34,769 bases of DNA, taken from the IMG/VR virus record IMGVR_UViG_3300009158_000118, positions 1-34,769 of that record; one strand, 5' to 3'. A model generated the notes under the pieces. The model saw only the letters and a list, made by a program, of their open reading frames with translations. It had not been told where the DNA came from and did no database searches. The DNA is from a virus. Shown here piece by piece: positions 1-12,541 of this stretch. The translations under genes were made by a program, and so were the position numbers. Positions within the stretch are counted from its first letter, which is position 1. Each line of letters opens with the position of its first letter.

Positions 1-3000
1 ATAATAGATAGTGTAGCATTACTAACTGAATTAAACTACGTATCTTCTCAAATGCAGGAGTTATTTAAAGATTCTTTAGATACTGTTATTAGAGATAAGT
101 ATAAAGGTAAAGAGGCTGATGGTCAAGGTAAATGTACTTTTGACTTTTATAGAACAATGAGTATTCTTACTAGTCAGTGGTCTGATGAACAAGAAGTAGT
201 TTATAAAAAAATTGTAGACTATAATCATTATGATGAATTAGCTGATGAAGAAACTGATCCTACTAAAAAGACAGAGTACATACAACTAAGAGATGCTGTA
301 GGTTATGATCCTACAGAACCGGTATATTTTCCTCCAAAGAAATTTCAATATGCAGGACCTCAAAACTATAGTAGAATTATAGATGGTAAAGAATATGTTG
401 GTGCTCCTCCAATATTTGATAAATTTTCTTTACAACCTTTAATACCTACTATTATAAAAGGGACATCAGATGAACATCTTGCTAAAAGAATGGAATACAA
501 TGGTGTTGCCTATGTAAAGTTTGATAGTGGAACTAAAGTAGAATCACCTAGGATAAAAGATGATTTCTATGAAGACTTTGATCCTGAAAATCCTAATGAA
601 AGAAAAATTCGTCCTTTCCAACCAACTGATAAATTTAAATCTGAGCAGGAACTTTTCTTTAATAACTTTAAAGAGCAGGTAAGTATAGATGCTGAAATTC
701 ATGACCATGCTATATTTGGTTCTCAAATACGTAAGTTAATTCTTATGAATCTTGATAGACCTGAGTTTGAAGCAATGAAGAATAATTATATTAAATATCT
801 TGGTGAACTTGCTGAAATAGAAAAGGTTGCTGTTTATAGTGAAATGGGTATTACTAGAGAGAATGGTAAACTAAAAGTAAAAGACCTTGGTAAAATTGTA
901 GAGTATTTCTTTAAAGAAATTGCTAAAAAGAATCAAGATACTAATGTAAAGAAGGCTCTTAACTATGATGAAAAGACAGGTAAGTTTGATATTCCATTAG
1001 ATGCTGCTGTACAAGCTCAGGTTCTTGAAGGAATTATTATATCTTCTATCAATAATAGAGTGGTTAGATATAAGACCAATGGGTCCATGCTTGTTCAGAT
1101 GGCTGTGACCGGTTCTGAAAAAGTTAATAAGTTTAATAAAGAACAATCTAAGCAAGGCATAGAAACTTATGGTAATGATGATTTAGGGTATTACGAAATT
1201 GTCCCTAATAAAAATGGAGAGAGAGATGTCTCTGATAATCTAATCCCTACTGTTACTAAAATGGGAGTTAAGATAGCTCTTACTGGACAATGGCTTGGTC
1301 TTCTAAACCTTGATCATCCTGATAGATCTAAGATAGGAAGTATTGAACGTCTTAATGAAGCTCTTAAAGATGAGGATTGGGTGGCTCGTCATGAAAAGAA
1401 GATTACAATGACTGCTTATCGTATTCCTACACAGGGTAGAAACTTCTTAGATGTTATGAAAATACAACAATTCTTACCTGCTGCTGCCGGTGATGCAATT
1501 GTTATGCCTCGTGAAGTGGTAATTAAATCTGGATCTGATTTTGATATCGATAAAATGTTTGTATTCTATCCTAATCTTACAGAGAAAGGAAACTATCAAG
1601 ATACTGCTTATACACAAGCTGATTTACAAAATCCTGCAAAGTATAATGAGATTAAAGGTAGTATCCAAAACAAGTTATATGAAACAATGCAGGAGATTAT
1701 ACTACATCCTGCTAATTATATAGAATTAGTTACTCCTTCAGACAACTATCACATCATGCCTATCCTGGACAGTATTTTTGAAAAACTGGGATTAAAAACA
1801 GAAGGTGAAGACCGTAAGAAGACTGACTATAAAAACACTGAAATTCTTGAAAGAGAAAACAATATTAACAAGTTTCTTTCTTTATTAAAAGGTAAATCAG
1901 ATTTAGGAATAGCAGCTGTAGCTAATACATTTAATGTAATGTTCCAGCTTGCCAATGCTACAGCAAACCCTAATTTTTTTGGAGCTGAAGCTAATAAAGG
2001 AACGTCTATTAAAACATTCTTTAATTCTGATTTTGTTGAAAAGTCTATTGGTAGAATAGTAGGTATAGATTTCTCAAGCATTTTTGATGAAGATGGAGCT
2101 TTGAAATCAGAATTCTTTAGTGAGTTTATTAATGCCTTTGTGGATGTAGCTAATGATGACTATGTATTTGCTGCCAATGTTGTAACAGAATTGAGTCCTG
2201 TAATGTTCTACATGAAGTATGCAGGTATGTCTTCTAAGAAAATATTAAACTTTGTAAATCAACCGGCTATTAGGTTATATACAAAGAACCTGGCAATGTT
2301 TCAAAACAAGTTTGTTAAACTTAATGGTATAGGTGAAAACACTTCACCTAGAAAACTGGCTATGTCATTAACTTTAAGGGAGTTAGGATACTCTGATGGT
2401 AAAGATAGGCCGTGGAGTAGAAACACAATGGAAGAGTACTTAAGTAAGAATCAAGGAGGATTTGGTATATCAAACTTTGATCAGTTTTATACTGATGATA
2501 TGTTGTCTAAAGGTATAAGAAAAGATGAATTGGGAATTAATACATTGTCTGATAAAGGAAAATTAATTCAAGTATCAATGTTATTGGAATTAGAAAACTT
2601 AAGACTTCAATCTAATAGTGTCACAGAGGCTCAGAAGTTTTTAAACTTTGATACTAATCCTTTTTCAAGCACGTTTGACATATATTCTCGTGACAGAGAT
2701 TATGAAAATGCTTTAGAAGGAAGCAATATATTATCACCTACTACAATAGCTAATATTAAAGTAAATAGTATCATCAGTCCATTGGATATGTCAGATGATA
2801 TAAAATCTATTTTATCTAGTCTTTTCCCAGTACGTAATGATGACAAGTTTAATAAATTTATATTTGATAAAGCAAATGAGTTAAAAGATACGTATGATAA
2901 TAAGAGTATTATTTCTCAAGATGATGTATTAAGGTTTGCTAGAACAGCAAAGAATGACTACATGAATTTTATTCTACAAAACTTTATTGGTTCTTCTAAA

Positions 3001-5790
3001 GAAGGAATGGAGTTTTTTCATTCTACTTTCGAAACTAAAAAAGATTTTAATGATTATCTAGCTGAACTGGTGCAGACAAATAAATTACCTAGTTTGTTTC
3101 AAACTATAAAGTCACTACCTTATTATGAGGCTTTGGCTAAAAAGTATCCTGTAATTAGAAACATTGTAGTTCAACGTGGTGAAAAAAATAGGAATTTAGT
3201 CTCATTTAAAATTGTAGAAAACAGTTCTAATACCATTGAAAAAGAGAGTGTTATAAGACAATTCGAAGAATTATCTAATCTTTCGGATCCTGAATATAAA
3301 ATTGTAAGAACCTTCTTTAGAGATTTAGCTTTATATTCTATATTCCAATCAGGAATGAATACATCGGACATAAGTTTTACAAGTTCAACTCCTATTAGTA
3401 TAGTGAATAAACTATACGGGGATGCTGTTAAAGAGTATTCTAAAATTAGTGATGCTGAAAAAGATATTCAATTTACCAATTTTGATAAATTATTTGTAAG
3501 CAATAACCCAGGATTTTACAATGGTCGTTCTAATGCTACTCTAACACAAGAAGCAAGTAGTAGAGGTAAATGGTATTCTGATAATGTAAAAATAGGTTGG
3601 GAGACTAAAAAAGCAGAAGTTCCAAAACCTGTGATGACTCCTGTATCAAATAAAGCAGCAGTTAAGATAGTTGAAAATACTGCAGACACTAAAGCTGCAG
3701 CAAGACGTAATGAAGGAATATACTCTATGAGACCTAATCCCGGTGATCAAATACCTGGAGTAGATGAGAATTTTCATTTTGGTAATCCATGGTCACACAA
3801 CGGATATCAAGGAACTATTAAAACAGGATCTCTGTCTGAGGCAGAAGCTAAAGCTATTGGCACGTGGAAAGGGGATATTAAAGCTACTGCTGTTTCAGAA
3901 GCAGCTAGTAACTATGAGAGATGGCTTACTGGTGAATCTTTTCAAGATGTAGAACCAGAAAGACTAGCTTGGATTAGAAATGTTGTAGCTGCAGGAAGAC
4001 TAGATGGTAAAACATTTGTTTATTTCAAACCTGGTTATATAAGTCATGCTGATGTATTAGTTGATTATATTAATGGTAGAAACAAAACTTTACTATCTAC
4101 TAAGGTTGTAGTTGATGCTAAATCTCCGGGAATATCTGAAGTTAAAGTGTTTAAGTGGAACCGTCCTAATGCTGAACGTGGTACAGATGCTGATGTAGCT
4201 ATGAGAAAAGATGCTGATGGCTTTATAGGAGAAGTAAATGATCTTAGTGGTAAAACATCTTCAAATACCTCAGCTAATGAGCTACTTGAAAAAAATAAGA
4301 AAAAAACTCCAAAGGATGCACAAGGAACTGATATACCTTGGGAAATTCAAGTATCTCCTAATGGTAAAACAATAGGAGTAGCTGGAACAAAAGGAACCAT
4401 CATGTTAGCTAGAAATGGTTCATTAAAAGGAAACCCTTTAGAGGAAGCAACTAAACTAGCTATAAAATCTCTTAATAATTCAGGAGACTATACTTTTATT
4501 ATAGGTGATATGGAAGGTGTTGACACTCCATTCATGGAACTTTTAAATGAGATTGGTGCCACTTATAAAATATATGGCCACGGAAGAATAGTGGGTGTTT
4601 CTGATAAAGAACACACCAGAACCAAGCCGGCTAATATTGTTGTGTTAAAAGGAAAAGAAGGAGCTGCTGCATTCATAGAAGGCATAGGAGGTAAGAAAGT
4701 TTCTAAAGGTATACTTAATATAGAAGGTCAGTTCTATTATGTTCCATTAGGAACAGATGCCGGGCAGATGGATATTTTTCCTAAACCTAAAGGGGACGAT
4801 CTTTTCATGTATGATGCAGAGGGAAATGAAGTTTATATAGGATCAAGAACAAAAGGTTCTAAAATATTTATTGTTGATCCTGGTTTTAGATATGCTTTTG
4901 ATAAGGTTAGTAAAACTATACTGAATTATACTAGTGAAGACATAGATCTATTAGAAAGTCGTATGAATAAGTCTTCTACATCTAAGTTGGCAGCCCCTGC
5001 TAAACTATCTGGAAAAGGAGTTAAGATAATGTATGATGCTGATATAGCTGCTTATGCTGCATACTTGATTAAATCTAATGGAAAACCTGCTAAGGAATTC
5101 TTTACATCTGCTACGGCATTTAAAGAATTTTATAATCCTGGAACTGGTAAACGTGAAAAGGCTCCTCAATCTTCTAAATGGGTATTACAAGATAATGGTT
5201 TATATAATTTAGTAGACGATGAGACTGGGGAGTTATACATTGAAAGTGTAGACCTTAAAACAGGAATGAAGTATGAAGAGGAAGTTCAACCTAAAGACAT
5301 AGTGAATAGAGTTAATGAAATCACTTATACTCCTAAAGGTAAAGAGTCTCAGAAATATACAGTAGAGGGAACCAAGATTTTCAAAACTAAAGAAGGTACA
5401 GAAGTGTTCAAAGAAGATTCTGTCGATCGTAATAAAATCTTTGCTAACCTGGCTGTAAAACAGGGCAGGGCCGTAGTAGTAGACCACAAAGGAACAAACT
5501 ATGTGGTAAATGCTAAGAATGTGATTATCTCTGCTAAAACAGGAGCTATTATGAAATGGGGAGCTGATAATGGAAATACTAAAGCCATAGTAGCTTTAGC
5601 AAAAGAAAAGTTCCTTATGAAACAATCTAACCCTAAAACCGGATTAATAGATGCTATTAAAAATTGGATTGGTTCCCAGGAGATTGTGACTATTAAAGAC
5701 TCAGCTGAAAGCATAGCTGCTCAATATGAAACAAATAAATTATCTGGGGAATCAATTGAAGAATTCTTAAAAAGGTTATCTTGCAAATAA
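1..5790 (+). CDS. Giant phage RNA polymerase-like protein with DFDID signature, DUF4326-like and SLOG-like domains (5' partial)
   Basis: The frame is open to base 1, so the protein starts before the window; the first internal ATG is at 52 and numbering below counts from it. At 1537-1551 it encodes DFDID (D496, D498, D500). The stretch before it reads R-I-P-T, then an IQ-x-F-L-P element, D-A-I-V-M-P and finally DFDID. This parallels the bacterial beta-prime catalytic region (RxPT, IQxFxP, AIxxxP, NADFDGD), with the Gly of DFDGD replaced by Ile. That fits the single-chain, virion-packaged RNA polymerases of crAss-like phages, with the three Asp binding catalytic Mg. Around residues 1217-1345 a DUF4326-like domain is visible (FGNPW, YERWL, GKTFVYFKPG, then H-A-D-V-L), but without that family's Cys residues. 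Residues about 1434-1520 (TIGVAG, FIIGDMEGVD) resemble a Rossmann-like SLOG/YspA nucleotide-binding domain. TAA at 5788 is followed 20 bases later by the next giant gene. The RNAP call is fairly sure; the accessory domains less so. Confidence 0.82.
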   Translation: MIDSVALLTELNYVSSQMQELFKDSLDTVIRDKYKGKEADGQGKCTFDFYRTMSILTSQWSDEQEVVYKKIVDYNHYDELADEETDPTKKTEYIQLRDAVGYDPTEPVYFPPKKFQYAGPQNYSRIIDGKEYVGAPPIFDKFSLQPLIPTIIKGTSDEHLAKRMEYNGVAYVKFDSGTKVESPRIKDDFYEDFDPENPNERKIRPFQPTDKFKSEQELFFNNFKEQVSIDAEIHDHAIFGSQIRKLILMNLDRPEFEAMKNNYIKYLGELAEIEKVAVYSEMGITRENGKLKVKDLGKIVEYFFKEIAKKNQDTNVKKALNYDEKTGKFDIPLDAAVQAQVLEGIIISSINNRVVRYKTNGSMLVQMAVTGSEKVNKFNKEQSKQGIETYGNDDLGYYEIVPNKNGERDVSDNLIPTVTKMGVKIALTGQWLGLLNLDHPDRSKIGSIERLNEALKDEDWVARHEKKITMTAYRIPTQGRNFLDVMKIQQFLPAAAGDAIVMPREVVIKSGSDFDIDKMFVFYPNLTEKGNYQDTAYTQADLQNPAKYNEIKGSIQNKLYETMQEIILHPANYIELVTPSDNYHIMPILDSIFEKLGLKTEGEDRKKTDYKNTEILERENNINKFLSLLKGKSDLGIAAVANTFNVMFQLANATANPNFFGAEANKGTSIKTFFNSDFVEKSIGRIVGIDFSSIFDEDGALKSEFFSEFINAFVDVANDDYVFAANVVTELSPVMFYMKYAGMSSKKILNFVNQPAIRLYTKNLAMFQNKFVKLNGIGENTSPRKLAMSLTLRELGYSDGKDRPWSRNTMEEYLSKNQGGFGISNFDQFYTDDMLSKGIRKDELGINTLSDKGKLIQVSMLLELENLRLQSNSVTEAQKFLNFDTNPFSSTFDIYSRDRDYENALEGSNILSPTTIANIKVNSIISPLDMSDDIKSILSSLFPVRNDDKFNKFIFDKANELKDTYDNKSIISQDDVLRFARTAKNDYMNFILQNFIGSSKEGMEFFHSTFETKKDFNDYLAELVQTNKLPSLFQTIKSLPYYEALAKKYPVIRNIVVQRGEKNRNLVSFKIVENSSNTIEKESVIRQFEELSNLSDPEYKIVRTFFRDLALYSIFQSGMNTSDISFTSSTPISIVNKLYGDAVKEYSKISDAEKDIQFTNFDKLFVSNNPGFYNGRSNATLTQEASSRGKWYSDNVKIGWETKKAEVPKPVMTPVSNKAAVKIVENTADTKAAARRNEGIYSMRPNPGDQIPGVDENFHFGNPWSHNGYQGTIKTGSLSEAEAKAIGTWKGDIKATAVSEAASNYERWLTGESFQDVEPERLAWIRNVVAAGRLDGKTFVYFKPGYISHADVLVDYINGRNKTLLSTKVVVDAKSPGISEVKVFKWNRPNAERGTDADVAMRKDADGFIGEVNDLSGKTSSNTSANELLEKNKKKTPKDAQGTDIPWEIQVSPNGKTIGVAGTKGTIMLARNGSLKGNPLEEATKLAIKSLNNSGDYTFIIGDMEGVDTPFMELLNEIGATYKIYGHGRIVGVSDKEHTRTKPANIVVLKGKEGAAAFIEGIGGKKVSKGILNIEGQFYYVPLGTDAGQMDIFPKPKGDDLFMYDAEGNEVYIGSRTKGSKIFIVDPGFRYAFDKVSKTILNYTSEDIDLLESRMNKSSTSKLAAPAKLSGKGVKIMYDADIAAYAAYLIKSNGKPAKEFFTSATAFKEFYNPGTGKREKAPQSSKWVLQDNGLYNLVDDETGELYIESVDLKTGMKYEEEVQPKDIVNRVNEITYTPKGKESQKYTVEGTKIFKTKEGTEVFKEDSVDRNKIFANLAVKQGRAVVVDHKGTNYVVNAKNVIISAKTGAIMKWGADNGNTKAIVALAKEKFLMKQSNPKTGLIDAIKNWIGSQEIVTIKDSAESIAAQYETNKLSGESIEEFLKRLSCK

Positions 5791-5810: not shown

Positions 5811-8597
5811 ATGGTAGTTTGTCCTAATAAATCAAGTAAAGAATGGCAGTCATTAGCTAAAGATCTAGGTGAAGATAGAGCTATGCTTGCTTTTATACGT
5901 AATAATGGTGTTGTTCCTAGTACATCTAAAGCTCGTGAATTGATTACTAACAAAGGAGTTTTACAATCTCTTCAGGTTCTTCCTAGACTTTCTGAAAGTA
6001 GTATACTTCAAACACTAAGGACTAACAACTTGATTGTTGGTGAAGGATTTAAACAAGGTGATAGAACATTTTACCAGCTTAATGGAAATGTAACTAATAT
6101 TGGAGATAAGCTTGGTGAATTTACAAGCACTTATGGAACTGTACTAGAGTACAAAGGAGATTATGTAACCATTGATGAAAATTCATTAGCTGCTTGGAAT
6201 AGTATTTCTAGTGCTCAACAACTTCAAAATAAATCTTTAACTGAACTATCTAAAGACTTTTTAAAAAGTATTGGAGTAAGTTTAGTGGAGCAAGATGATG
6301 TTATTAAAAAATATGGATCTAATGGTATAGCTGACTTTGCAGAAAGAATGATAAGAATTCAATCCGGTATGACAGATGAAGTTCTTCCTGAAGAAGCTTT
6401 ACACTTTTTCCTGGATATGTTACCACAGGATCATCCTGCTTTACTAGAATCTTTAGATAAAATACGTAACACTCAAACTTACAAAACTACATTTGAGAAG
6501 TACAAGAATAATCCTAACTATCGTGTTGATGGAGTAATTAATATCACTAAGATTAAAAAAGAAGCATTGGCTAAAGAATTAGCTGCTCAAATGAAAAAAG
6601 AAGAGAAAGCTGGCTGGGCTGAAAACTTACTTAACATTATACTAGACTGGATTAAAAAAACATTTATTAAAAAAGGACCAAATGATATTCTTAGAGATTT
6701 ATACTTTAGTGGGGACATTAGTACGTTAAATACTAACCTTCAGTCTTCTGAAATATACAACCAGCTTACTGATGAAAATAAGGCATACTATGAGGCTCAA
6801 CTTACTAATGAAGCTCAGAGGCAAACATTAGAAAAGATTCTTGCTTATATTCTTCCTACTAGTTTTGATGGTAAAGGACATAAATATACTTATGCCGGCA
6901 ATCCAGAAGGTGCCCTTGTAAAATCTGTTACAACAGTTATAGGTTCAGAATTCTTTTCTGAAGTTGAAAATCCTGATGTAATGCTAGAAGTGGCAAATGC
7001 TTTTGTTCATGAAATTCCATTAGCAACATTTAATGCTGACGATAGTGAAAACGTAAAAGGTAAAAAGATAATCAACTTTATAGTTGAAGAAATATTAAAC
7101 GGCAATAGAACTCCTGAAGAAATGGAGAAAATTGTTGGAACAAAAATCAGTGATTTACTATTTAAAGCATCTGAAGCTAAAGCTAAAACTTTATTTGGTA
7201 CAGCTATTCATAGTATTGCTGAGGCTGTTATTCTTGGAAAAAAGATAAACCTTGATGTTATAGATCCAAAAGATCCTTCTAAAGGTGGTATAGATCCTAT
7301 TGTATATAAGTTGATGGATAGAGCTAGTCTTGAGACACTACTTGCAGGTACAGCTACGGAGGAAGGCCTTATTCAAACTATCAGAAACTTAGTTAAAACT
7401 AATCATGTTGTAATGAGTGAGGTTGCCATAAGTAATGGTAAACTTGGAGGGGTATTAGATATCATAGCAATTGATGATCAGGGTGTGGCTCACATCTATG
7501 ATTTTAAAACAAAATTTATTAAAAATTTTGGTAGTAAATCATTTATCAAAGAAGGTTTAATTGATGAATTTCACAATACAATAAATGCAAAAAGTCCAAT
7601 TGGTGTTAAAAATGAACCAGATACTTTAAAAGAACTTAGAGGTGTGCCTAGAAGTAATAGACAAAAATACAGTCAACAGTTATCCATTTACAAAAAGATG
7701 TTAATGGAGGCTGGTATTCCTGTAGGAAGTATTAACATTATTGGGATACCTTACAGACTTGATGCTGATAATAAAGTATCAGATATTAAAGTCAGTATAG
7801 TTAAAAATATTGAGTTTAATAAATCACTTGCTAACTATTACTTTCCTGGGCTGGATGCTGGCCTGGATGCTACTGTTAAAAAAGCTGTCGAGTCTAAAGA
7901 AGATCCTAGATTAGATACCATCAGGTCTGTAGAAAATAATAAACTTAAAGAAGCCTTTGCTAAATCACTAAGTAGACTTACTCAAATATACAGAGCTTTT
8001 GATAAAAACAAAAGTAAAGAAGAGTTATATAAACTTTTATTAAATGAAGGTAGTAAAGCAAACAAAGTACAACTTCAAAAAAGTGTAGTGGAAGCTACCT
8101 TAGATAACTTTGCTCATGCTGAGGAAATAGGTAACTTTTTAGAAATTCAAAAAAACTTTTTAGAATTAATTGATTCATCTGCTCCTATTATAAGAACAGC
8201 TGTTGAGCATTTTAATAATTTAAAGAAATCTACTCCTACAAACTCTGAAGGTGTATCCTTAAAATTAGCTGAACTTTTAAAAGTTAAAAATTTCTTGTCC
8301 GGTTATCAAAATATGTTTGAAGAATTATTAGACTATTTTCCTGATGCTAATCAAGATAACCTTGTAAAAAAGAAATTAACTGATCTTATTGGTGTCACCT
8401 CTGGAGTAAAAAGTGAGTATATTAAAGTGATTAGTCCTGATATTGTAAACATGTTAGGTGATGTATTTAATAAAGATCTACTAGATAATATTAGACGTGA
8501 GTATAGTGAGTTAATTGCTGCAGCTAATGCTCGTGGGGATGTAGAAAGAGCTAAAGAATTAAAAACTGAAAGAGATGACTTGCTTCACAAAAAGTAA
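5811..8597 (+). CDS. Giant virion-type protein, N-terminal part, with PD-(D/E)XK nuclease domain
   Basis: This 928-residue product follows the RNA polymerase-like gene; its ATG has an A-rich leader. The N-terminus (about residues 1-50, with an S-x-E-W-x-x-L element and a stretch rich in acidic residues and helix formers) resembles, from memory, the starts of other giant Bacteroidetes phage proteins. A PD-(D/E)XK nuclease domain lies in the middle: helix motif GTAIHSIAE with H467, then D550 in a GGVLDII strand and D564-F-K566 in the next strand, the usual D...(D/E)xK layout of RecB/Cas4-like nucleases. The C-terminal third (about 640-928) is charged and helical. The frame stops at TAA 8595-8597 in a charged segment (HKK), and the -1 frame continues with the same character into the 8705-12541 reading frame. 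I therefore read this as the N-terminal part of an about 2,243-residue protein, joined by frameshifting or broken by a sequence error. The role of the nuclease is unknown; host DNA degradation or genome processing are possibilities. Confidence 0.78.
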   Translation: MVVCPNKSSKEWQSLAKDLGEDRAMLAFIRNNGVVPSTSKARELITNKGVLQSLQVLPRLSESSILQTLRTNNLIVGEGFKQGDRTFYQLNGNVTNIGDKLGEFTSTYGTVLEYKGDYVTIDENSLAAWNSISSAQQLQNKSLTELSKDFLKSIGVSLVEQDDVIKKYGSNGIADFAERMIRIQSGMTDEVLPEEALHFFLDMLPQDHPALLESLDKIRNTQTYKTTFEKYKNNPNYRVDGVINITKIKKEALAKELAAQMKKEEKAGWAENLLNIILDWIKKTFIKKGPNDILRDLYFSGDISTLNTNLQSSEIYNQLTDENKAYYEAQLTNEAQRQTLEKILAYILPTSFDGKGHKYTYAGNPEGALVKSVTTVIGSEFFSEVENPDVMLEVANAFVHEIPLATFNADDSENVKGKKIINFIVEEILNGNRTPEEMEKIVGTKISDLLFKASEAKAKTLFGTAIHSIAEAVILGKKINLDVIDPKDPSKGGIDPIVYKLMDRASLETLLAGTATEEGLIQTIRNLVKTNHVVMSEVAISNGKLGGVLDIIAIDDQGVAHIYDFKTKFIKNFGSKSFIKEGLIDEFHNTINAKSPIGVKNEPDTLKELRGVPRSNRQKYSQQLSIYKKMLMEAGIPVGSINIIGIPYRLDADNKVSDIKVSIVKNIEFNKSLANYYFPGLDAGLDATVKKAVESKEDPRLDTIRSVENNKLKEAFAKSLSRLTQIYRAFDKNKSKEELYKLLLNEGSKANKVQLQKSVVEATLDNFAHAEEIGNFLEIQKNFLELIDSSAPIIRTAVEHFNNLKKSTPTNSEGVSLKLAELLKVKNFLSGYQNMFEELLDYFPDANQDNLVKKKLTDLIGVTSGVKSEYIKVISPDIVNMLGDVFNKDLLDNIRREYSELIAAANARGDVERAKELKTERDDLLHKK
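8586..8597 (+). other. Candidate -1 frameshift site between two giant reading frames
   Basis: The zero frame reads CAC AAA AAG TAA, so a five-A run followed by G sits directly before the stop. Re-pairing one base back puts A-site tRNA-Lys on AAA and the next codon becomes GTA at 8594, which opens the frame that runs without a stop to 12541. That frame is closed upstream (TGA at 8576), so the two frames overlap only from about 8579 to 8597, exactly around this site. Between 8594 and the first ATG at 8705 lie 37 codons of ordinary coding character with no ATG, GTG or TTG. A perfect palindrome CTTTTAAAAG follows at 8606-8615, but I see no strong stem-loop or pseudoknot at the usual distance. A one-base error in the A run would give the same picture. 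Confidence 0.6.
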
Positions 8598-8704
8598 TTG
8601 AAGAACTTTTAAAAGGAAACAAAGGGGATACCGGTTGGTTTTTTAGTAAGCTAGTTGCAACTATTTCTAATCCAGATATAGTTTTAGCAGGTGTAGCTAA
8701 AAAA

Positions 8705-11700
8705 ATGAAAGCTACTCTTGACCAAGTGAGACTTGATAATAAGAAATTTAGAGATGGTTTTTCTAAAGAACTTGATAAGAGATTTAAAATATACGGAAGA
8801 GGCAATGTTGATGTTAAAGCTTTTAACCAATCTCTTACAGACATAGTTGAAGAGTTTGATCCTAATGGAGAATATAACTCTGTTACAAAAATTAGAAGTG
8901 AAAAAACTCGTCATGTAATGTATTTTAAAAGTGAGTTTAGTGAAAAACTTTACAATGATTATAATAGATTAAAATTTGCTTTTAAGCAAGCTGAAGATTC
9001 CAAAGATAAGGATGCTATGAGTATAGCTAAAAAAGCTATTAAAGAATTTGAAAACAAATTTTTTCAAACAGGATACACTGATGAGTATTATAAACTAACT
9101 GCCCCATTAGAAACAAAAGTTCGTTATCAAGGAAAGGACATGACTGTTAGAGAAATTGAAGGTCAAATCCGGGATGAGATTAATAAACTTGAACGTCTAT
9201 ATAGTAATGATGACATAGAAACTGGAGCATTTGATAAAGCTCATTTGACTGAACTTCAAAAACTTCATGAAAGAAGAGCTGAGTTAAGGGATGTATTAGA
9301 TTCTAAAGGCAATCCTAAAAGTGGAGAGGAACTAAAGATAGCTAATGCTTTAAATGAATATGATAAAAATAAGTCAAAGCTGTACACAACAGAAGAACAA
9401 ACTGAATATTTTAATCGTGTTAATGAGAAAGCTAAACTTGACATGGGTGAAGATAGTGAAGAGTATAAAAAATGGTTTACTGATAATACTCGTACAGTTG
9501 TTAAAGATGAATATTTTAAAGAGTTATCACGTCTTTATGATGAAAAAGGTAAAATAGTTGGTAGTGTAGGTATGTCTGATGAAATTAATGTATTGTATAC
9601 CAAACTTAGGCAATTAACTAAAGCTTATAAAGATAAAGATGGTACTGTTAGAGGAGCTATGCTTAGTGATGAGGCAGCTGATAAAATTAAAAAAATTCAA
9701 GATCAAATAGTTGAATTGTCTTTAGATATGGAAGATAGTCTACTTAATGGTTATACTAAACAAGAAAAAGATAGACTTAAAACATTATGGTATCTTAAAA
9801 ATAATGGTCTTCCTTATGATGAGATGGAGATGAATGAAATTAGAGAATCTGGTAAAGCAAGATTACAAGCTAGAATAATTGCAGATCCTCTTCTTGGTGA
9901 AAAGATTGATAAACTTAAAGAAATTAATGAGCAAATATGGGGCATGAGTAAAAAAGAAAATACTCCGTATTATGAAAAAGAACTAGAAGATCAAATGCAG
10001 TTATTTGCAACAGCTAATAATATTACTCTTGACCAATTGAAAGAAGAAGGAGTATGGATGGAGCAGTTTAAAGATAGTGATTGGTTTATTAATAATCATA
10101 TCATTAGTAGAAAAGTTTTGTATGAAGATGAGGAGACTGGAGAAAAAAGAATTGATAGAACAGAAATTCCTACATATCAGTGGAGAAGAAATATGCCAGT
10201 TGAAAAGTATATTGAAAGAAAACCAGGAAAACAGTTTTCAAGAACCGTACTTAAAGAATCATATACTGATGAAAAGGGTAATGAAATAATGTTGCAAGAT
10301 CTTGATAACTTAGATGTTCAAAGAAGATTTAAACCTAAAACGAATGAACAATATCGTAAGTTAAATGGTACAGATCATCCCTACTTGAACAAAGAGTTTT
10401 ATAATTTAAAAATTAAAAACGAAAATGGTAGTGCATCTGCAAAAGAGAAAGTTGACTATGAGAATTTACTCTATATCCATGATCAAATGCTTAAGTCTCA
10501 AGAAAATATTGAGCCGTCACAACGTATTGGATTAGCTGTTCCATTCTTAGAGAAAGAATTATTTGAAAGAACTGTTGAATCTAAAGGCACCAATATTAAA
10601 GAAAAGATAGGTGGGAAACTATCAAGTATTTGGGAAGCTATTAAACGTATGTTTAAACGTACAGCTCAGGATGTTGATCAAGAAGGTATTCCTACAACTG
10701 AAGAAAGTAGTAGAAATGATATATCTAAATTGGCAACAATGGATAATTCACAGATTAAATTTATACCAGTAAGATTTAGTACAAAAGGTGAAGCTGAAAA
10801 TGCTAGTTATGATGTATGGGGAGGAGTTTTAAATTATGTAGGATCTATTACTAGAAAAGCTGCACTTGACAAAGAGCTTGCTTTTGTTAATGGTATAGAA
10901 GAAATATTATCTGGTAAAGAGAATCAACCTAAGTCAGAAAGTAGAAACTTAATTTTAAATAATATTTACAAAAAGTACCTGGGCCCAGAGTATGAAGCAA
11001 AAATAAATAAAGGTGGTAATACACGTTTAGAAGTATTAAAAAGCTTTATTAATTCTGTAATGTATAATGAAACTTCTTTTGAAGGATTTGATGTATTAGG
11101 AGTGAACTCTCAAAAGGCCATGAATAATGTTATGGCTTTAAGTAGCTTTACTATTCTTGGAGCTGCTCCTCTTAACTGGGCTACTAACTGGATAAGTGGT
11201 AACGTTCAAAACTTTGTAGAAGCTGCAGGTGGAAAAATCTATAACATAAAAGATTTTAATTCAGCAAATACAGACATCTATACCGGAGGTAAATATGGTT
11301 CTCCTATTAAAGACATGCAAGAAGACTACACTAAAGTAGGTAATAGATCTTTCTGGGGTCAAATTATAGAAGTATGGGATCCTATGCAAGGTGAATTTGA
11401 AAATGAATTTGGTCATAAAACTAACTTTAATGTTGCCAAAAACATATTTAAACAAGGACTTTATGCTGGTAAAATATGGGGTGAGTGGGAAATTCAAATG
11501 AAATCATTTATAGCATTTATGAAAAATCATAAGCTATATGATGGAGAAATAGTTGATAGAGAAACATTTATAACAAAAAAGATTGGTACTGATTTAGATG
11601 GTATGTCACCCTCTCAAATTAGTAAACTAAGACTTGAGGCTTTAAAAGAATTTGAAGCATTAGATGTTAATCTTCTTGACATGATGGAATTAAATAAAGA

Positions 11701-12541
11701 AGGAACCCTTGCTATTAAAGATAAGTATAAAGAGTCTTTTCAGTTTGGTAGTGGTCAATTTAGTGACATAGTTGCTAAACTTCATGCACTGCAGAAAAAA
11801 CTGAATGGTTCATATAACCAGTTTGATAAAGCTTATGCTGAGAAAACATCTATTGGTAAAATGATGTTCTTTTTTAGAAAGTATTTTCTTCCAATAGGTA
11901 TTAATCGTTGGGGAGTTCGTAGAGTTAATTATGAGTCTATGAATATAGAACAAGGATTCTATCTTACGTTTATACAAACAATGGGTAAAGACCTTGCTAA
12001 GTTTAGATTTAAAGTTATAGCTGATTGGAGTAAATACTCACCTGATGAAAAAATAGCTATTAAAAAAACATTGACTGATATGGGAATAGTATTAGGTATA
12101 TGGCTTGCTTATAGTGTTCTTTTAGGATATGATCCTGATGACAAGGACAGATTTAAAAAGCTTAAAGAAAAAGGATGGGCTGCTCAGGCTGCTGTTTTCC
12201 TTCTTTTAAAAGTTAGATCTGAAACTGAACAGTTTCTTCCTTATGCCGGTTTAAATGAGATTAAAGGTGTGTACAGTAATCCATCTTTAGTATTTAATGA
12301 GACCACTCGTTATATGAATTTAACAAAATTAATTGGTGAACACATGTTGAATGTTCTTCCTGGAGTAGATTTTAATCATGATCTTTATTATAGTAAAGAT
12401 GTTGATCAAAGTGGATTGAAAGATAAGGGAGATTCAAAATTAATTTCAGCTGCTGTAAAATCAATAATTGGGTATAGTGGAAGAACAGTACATCCTGATG
12501 ATGCAATCAAGTCCTTTGAATATATGCAGAGAATGAAATAA
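8705..12541 (+). CDS. Giant virion-type protein, C-terminal part (probable continuation of the preceding frame)
   Basis: From its first ATG the frame encodes 1,278 residues, but it is already open from 8579, and the extra codons look coding (WFFSKL, then PDIVLAGVAKKM). Translation from 8594 by a -1 shift would add 37 residues to the front. The first roughly 600 residues are highly charged, Glu/Lys rich and probably coiled coil. The C-terminal half contains hydrophobic stretches near residues 795-825 (MALSSFTILGAAPLNWATNW) and 1122-1140 (GIVLGIWLAYSVLLGY), possibly membrane-interacting. I recognise no enzyme domain. Large proteins with hydrophobic segments beside a virion RNA polymerase would fit internal proteins ejected with the DNA, but that is inference. 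The gene ends at TAA 12539-12541, directly on a terminator hairpin. Confidence 0.72.
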   Translation: MKATLDQVRLDNKKFRDGFSKELDKRFKIYGRGNVDVKAFNQSLTDIVEEFDPNGEYNSVTKIRSEKTRHVMYFKSEFSEKLYNDYNRLKFAFKQAEDSKDKDAMSIAKKAIKEFENKFFQTGYTDEYYKLTAPLETKVRYQGKDMTVREIEGQIRDEINKLERLYSNDDIETGAFDKAHLTELQKLHERRAELRDVLDSKGNPKSGEELKIANALNEYDKNKSKLYTTEEQTEYFNRVNEKAKLDMGEDSEEYKKWFTDNTRTVVKDEYFKELSRLYDEKGKIVGSVGMSDEINVLYTKLRQLTKAYKDKDGTVRGAMLSDEAADKIKKIQDQIVELSLDMEDSLLNGYTKQEKDRLKTLWYLKNNGLPYDEMEMNEIRESGKARLQARIIADPLLGEKIDKLKEINEQIWGMSKKENTPYYEKELEDQMQLFATANNITLDQLKEEGVWMEQFKDSDWFINNHIISRKVLYEDEETGEKRIDRTEIPTYQWRRNMPVEKYIERKPGKQFSRTVLKESYTDEKGNEIMLQDLDNLDVQRRFKPKTNEQYRKLNGTDHPYLNKEFYNLKIKNENGSASAKEKVDYENLLYIHDQMLKSQENIEPSQRIGLAVPFLEKELFERTVESKGTNIKEKIGGKLSSIWEAIKRMFKRTAQDVDQEGIPTTEESSRNDISKLATMDNSQIKFIPVRFSTKGEAENASYDVWGGVLNYVGSITRKAALDKELAFVNGIEEILSGKENQPKSESRNLILNNIYKKYLGPEYEAKINKGGNTRLEVLKSFINSVMYNETSFEGFDVLGVNSQKAMNNVMALSSFTILGAAPLNWATNWISGNVQNFVEAAGGKIYNIKDFNSANTDIYTGGKYGSPIKDMQEDYTKVGNRSFWGQIIEVWDPMQGEFENEFGHKTNFNVAKNIFKQGLYAGKIWGEWEIQMKSFIAFMKNHKLYDGEIVDRETFITKKIGTDLDGMSPSQISKLRLEALKEFEALDVNLLDMMELNKEGTLAIKDKYKESFQFGSGQFSDIVAKLHALQKKLNGSYNQFDKAYAEKTSIGKMMFFFRKYFLPIGINRWGVRRVNYESMNIEQGFYLTFIQTMGKDLAKFRFKVIADWSKYSPDEKIAIKKTLTDMGIVLGIWLAYSVLLGYDPDDKDRFKKLKEKGWAAQAAVFLLLKVRSETEQFLPYAGLNEIKGVYSNPSLVFNETTRYMNLTKLIGEHMLNVLPGVDFNHDLYYSKDVDQSGLKDKGDSKLISAAVKSIIGYSGRTVHPDDAIKSFEYMQRMK

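Follow-up and report, generated by a model that had tools for sequence, protein, structure and literature searches.

A frame-broken giant gene for a predicted nuclease-bearing homologue of the crAss001 cargo protein gp49

Reading frames and gene neighbourhood

The window analysed here is the complete virus record IMGVR_UViG_3300009158_000118 (34,769 bases), a fragment that begins inside an RNA polymerase gene. Immediately downstream of this gene two long open reading frames (ORFs) follow on the same strand (Table 1), and the second of these (ORF 8705-12541, 1,278 aa) is in frame -1 relative to the first (ORF 5811-8597). The -1 frame is closed upstream by a TGA at 8576-8578 and open from 8579 onwards; within this open stretch there is no ATG, GTG or TTG upstream of 8705. 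The two frames overlap at 8579-8594 only, i.e. over 16 bases, and the sequence at the first stop is CAC AAA AAG TAA. Reading through from 5811 to 12541 covers 6,731 bases and would yield a protein of ~2,243 aa. A previous sequence-only reading of the window had reported the same two ORFs and their -1 relation, which we find as it described them; it placed the shift at the A5-G run directly before the stop and offered two alternative causes, programmed frameshifting or an indel that broke the gene.

Table 1. Features of the window around the frame break
Feature	Positions	Strand	Remarks
crAss-like virion RNA polymerase, DFDID catalytic motif	1..5790	+	5' truncated by contig end
First fragment	5811..8597	+	ORF of 928 aa; out-of-frame stop TAA at 8595-8597; the PEEALHFF block marks a conserved N-terminal region, and a PD-(D/E)XK-like nuclease block is also present
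Second fragment, -1 frame	8579..12541	+	First canonical start ATG 8705; coding conservation already upstream of this ATG
Most likely site of one-base loss, variable linker	8579..8585	+	Nucleotide, codon and profile alignments
AAAAAG run (slip site of the sequence-only reading)	8589..8594	+	Length as in L004; not conserved in the other four relatives
37 codons between stop and ATG 8705	8594..8704	+	Conserved coding sequence (GDTGWFFSKLVATISNPD...)

An RNA polymerase gene with a DxDxD motif adjoins the two ORFs: the DFDID of ORF 1-5790 is found in the same context as in phi14:2 g066, which is annotated as Catalytic RNA polymerase subunit. A search against solved structures gave weak matches only (E above 0.5) and did not recover an RNA polymerase structure. 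The gene order corresponds to that of crAss001 (gp50-gp49) and phi14:2 (g066-g065): in all three, the second gene directly follows the one for the virion RNA polymerase, and opposite-strand (convergent) genes come next. Two further observations concern genes of relatives. The RNA polymerase ORF of contig G003 (L022) carries ~181 extra residues just after DFDID (residues ~894-1076), which neither the window nor L006 has and which show no obvious intein ends. On contig G001 (L023, 10619-11679 and 12322-13653), a stretch of ~290-350 bases with no counterpart in the window interrupts the Sak4-like helicase gene, and another such stretch the DnaB-like one; both have the look of intron insertions.

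The product of the two ORFs is homologous to crAss001 gp49 (NC_049977, 1,349 aa) and phi14:2 g065 (NC_021806, 1,421 aa), the RNA-polymerase-associated cargo proteins of these Crassvirales virions: tblastn gave E values of 5e-11 and 8e-8, respectively, and a profile of the C-terminal half gave 5.5e-30 and 1.3e-12. In addition, crAss001 gp49 matches positions 121-345 of the N-terminal half. Mass spectrometry identified both gp49 and gp50 as cargo proteins of the crAss001 virion (PMC10172136), and the presence of g065 in the phi14:2 virion is annotated in its record from MS/MS proteomics. On homology, the gene is predicted to encode a Crassvirales cargo protein, a nuclease-bearing homologue of crAss001 gp49. 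Unlike gp49 itself, the window protein would comprise ~2,240 aa, includes a nuclease block and is frame-broken by one base. By analogy with crAss001 and phi14:2, packaging of the intact protein into the virion is presumed for the window phage; it would then reach the host cell together with the RNA polymerase.

The nuclease block is matched by the exonuclease family phrog_298 over residues 348-644 of the first ORF (E 2.4e-8); a Pfam search gave no match. FGTAIH, GGVLD and YDFKTK are conserved across the relatives and supply the H, D and DxK residues of PD-(D/E)XK enzymes, consistent with a putative PD-(D/E)XK nuclease. Yutin et al. have described PDDEXK domains in some crAss-like phages, within large proteins associated with transcription (PMC7886860). 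In crAss001 gp49 no clear match to the block was found; residues 1573-1807 of crAss001 gp47 (L020) match it weakly instead, which suggests that the nuclease domain may move between cargo proteins. Upstream of the nuclease block, within 5811-8597, a strongly conserved E-E-A-L/M-H block surrounds LPEEALHFFLDML; this block is common to many large viral ORFs. L093 and L107 share the PEEALHF region with the N-terminal half; L107 is a 4,227-aa ORF on the bacterial chromosome of Chitinophaga sp. YR573 (NZ_FOJF01000001.1), possibly an integrated element.

The gene in related phages

Viral contigs were searched with each half, and 14 database records were found to hold both. In all 14 the two halves form a single uninterrupted ORF. 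The six closest relatives have an intact ORF of 2,214-2,247 aa that is 45-60% identical to the window protein; in the eight more distant records the joint ORF measures 2,027-2,035 aa. The IMG/VR contigs G001-G006 (loci L002-L008; crAss-like, 62-129 kb) carry a gene of this length and identity in the same gene order as the window, in one intact reading frame unlike the window. In many further contigs the block of the N-terminal half alone lies inside single long ORFs, and crAss001 gp49 is one ORF that matches parts of both the N-half and the C-half profiles. Apart from the window itself, no split gene was found in the records searched.

The 37 codons that precede ATG 8705 are part of this conservation. 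Between 20 and 26 of the 37 residues (54-70%) match each of the six close relatives, and the nucleotide differences to five relatives, counted in the -1 frame, cluster at third positions; against L004, for instance, there are 10, 8 and 20 differences by codon position. The methionine at 8705 aligns with leucine in the close relatives. The sequence-only reading had noted coding-like codons in this region without a start and had proposed an alignment against homologous giant proteins, which now identifies the stretch as conserved protein. Its proposal of one ~2,243-residue protein is likewise borne out by the single ORF of the 14 records; homologues organized as two genes with a true start at 8705, which would have spoken against it, do not occur among them. 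Because the halves are joined in every relative, the 37 codons are conserved and Met 8705 corresponds to leucine, positions 5811-12541 are to be regarded, on this comparative basis, as one giant gene, in which Met 8705 is predicted to be an internal residue and no start.

Two real genes, the second of them beginning at ATG 8705, are by the same observations the least probable arrangement of all. The start context at 8705 is A-rich like that of other starts in the window, and this ATG is the first canonical start in the -1 frame; yet a start there would discard the 37 conserved codons, the methionine is not conserved and no homologue is split. This arrangement was rejected because of the conserved upstream codons.

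Position and cause of the frame break

The best one-base gap lies 4-15 bases upstream of the A5-G run, at ~8579-8585. If the frames are joined at 8579-8582, the protein reads R-D-D-L-A-S-Q-K-V-I-E-E-L-L, collinear with R-D-N-L-P-S-E-K-V-I-A-E-L-L in L004, the nearest intact relative; a junction at the A run produces L-L-H-K-K. The upstream position is preferred over the A run (i) in summed BLOSUM scores over five relatives (701 vs 668), (ii) in the profile of the relatives (3178.3 vs 3173.4 bits) and (iii) in nucleotide matches summed over five relatives (438 for a gap near 8579-8585 vs 422-426); the preference is moderate in each test, with relatives that are not independent of one another, and the three tests agree in direction. 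MAFFT places a single gap between 8582 and 8583. In addition, L004 has GAAAAAGTAAT at the place of CAAAAAGTAAT in the window, with five A's before GTAAT in both, and the -1 frame agrees with the relatives already upstream of the run (L-A-S vs L-P/A-S). The alignments thus support the loss of one base at ~8579-8585, about ten bases from the A5-G run to which the sequence-only reading had assigned the shift; that assignment does not hold, given the equal A count of the intact L004. Two extra bases instead of one missing base score lower at every position compared (best fit 3170.4 vs 3176.9 bits), and an intron at the junction was dismissed, as the MAFFT alignment is collinear and shows no extra sequence.

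A programmed -1 ribosomal frameshift at C AAA AAG would fix the ratio of a short nuclease product to the full-length protein. In its favour, AAA AAG directly precedes the in-frame stop, resembling the established slippery site of dnaX, A_AAA_AAG (PMC5009743), and RNA polymerase subunit ORFs of zeta-group crAss-like phages are drastically disrupted by stops and frameshifts, for which Yutin et al. suggested unknown expression mechanisms (PMC7886860). The heptamer at 8588-8594, however, is C_AAA_AAG rather than A_AAA_AAG and does not provide the X_XX half of X_XXY_YYZ. None of the 14 records with both halves changes frame at this place, and no relative has a split, a slippery motif with stop, or a run followed by an in-frame stop at the site; nor do the relatives of the window show a disruption of the kind seen in the zeta-group RNA polymerase ORFs. 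Similarity of the -1 frame to the relatives begins upstream of the run, contrary to expectation for a slip within it. As a candidate downstream stimulator, the 86 nt at 8595-8680 fold worse than shuffled sequences (z +1.49; 190 of 200 shuffles fold equally well or better) in a model that covers structures other than pseudoknots, and an Rfam search matched no family. AAAAAG is abundant in the window (91 copies on both strands, at 32% GC), and the first ORF by itself has five AAA AAG pairs in frame, so that its occurrence near a stop is unremarkable. The window thus shares with programmed -1 frameshift genes (dnaX with A_AAA_AAG, lambda G/GT) the AAA AAG codon pair beside the frame change and differs from them in that site and architecture are not conserved, a stimulator structure is missing and its own shift lies upstream of the run. 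A programmed frameshift at the A run, offered by the sequence-only reading as one of its alternatives with a fixed ratio of forms, was rejected on conservation, placement and folding and is considered very improbable. Since this explanation fails, the nuclease-only short form would be a by-product of the break and not a designed product. Transcriptional slippage at five A's was set aside, the run being too short.

The alternative cause offered by that reading, an indel that broke the gene, fits the evidence, albeit at another place: in this record the gene is broken by the loss of one base at ~8579-8585 in a variable linker. A relative-rate test that compared the window with L004, using four outgroups, revealed no excess change in the window lineage in either half; because neither half is accelerated, the break appears to be very recent or artefactual. 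It is also the sole lesion detected in the window, as each of ~30 other conserved genes keeps to one frame in comparison with the relatives. According to Antonov et al., unclustered frameshifts validated by BLASTp are expected to be sequencing errors and not genuine indels (PMC3711429). Counting against an error, the site of the loss is not a homopolymer and has no tell-tale error context. A second copy of the same phage was not found by an exact 27-mer search, nor was a near-identical second contig, in searches from which near-identical records may have been withheld, and blastn against the phages collection gave no match. A base truly missing in the phage, i.e. a frameshift that arose recently and has inactivated or split the gene in this population, is possible but rather unlikely. 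In its favour, the lesion lies outside a long homopolymer, the absence of frame breaks elsewhere in the window relative to its relatives points to an otherwise clean assembly, and a split might be tolerated in the poorly conserved linker. On the other hand, the gene is conserved across related phages, its homologues are virion components (PMC10172136; phi14:2 record), and a consensus with a broken copy would be surprising if the phage needs the protein; relaxed constraint left no sign in the relative-rate test, and no second lesion occurs in 6.7 kb. Very improbable, too, is that the deletion is real and the gene makes two polypeptides or is rescued by slipping at AAAAAG; a virion cargo protein would then have undergone recoding or fission recently and in this lineage specifically, in keeping with the disrupted frames of RNA polymerase ORFs in zeta-group crAss-like phages. 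The break is therefore probably a sequencing or assembly indel in the gene of a gp49-like, nuclease-bearing cargo protein of ~2,240 residues, an error being inferred rather than a mutation.

Implications for annotation

Positions 5811-12541 should be annotated as one frame-broken gene, and neither as two genes nor as a programmed frameshift. With its putative nuclease, the gp49-like protein extends the reported occurrence of PDDEXK domains in large transcription-associated proteins of crAss-like phages (PMC7886860).
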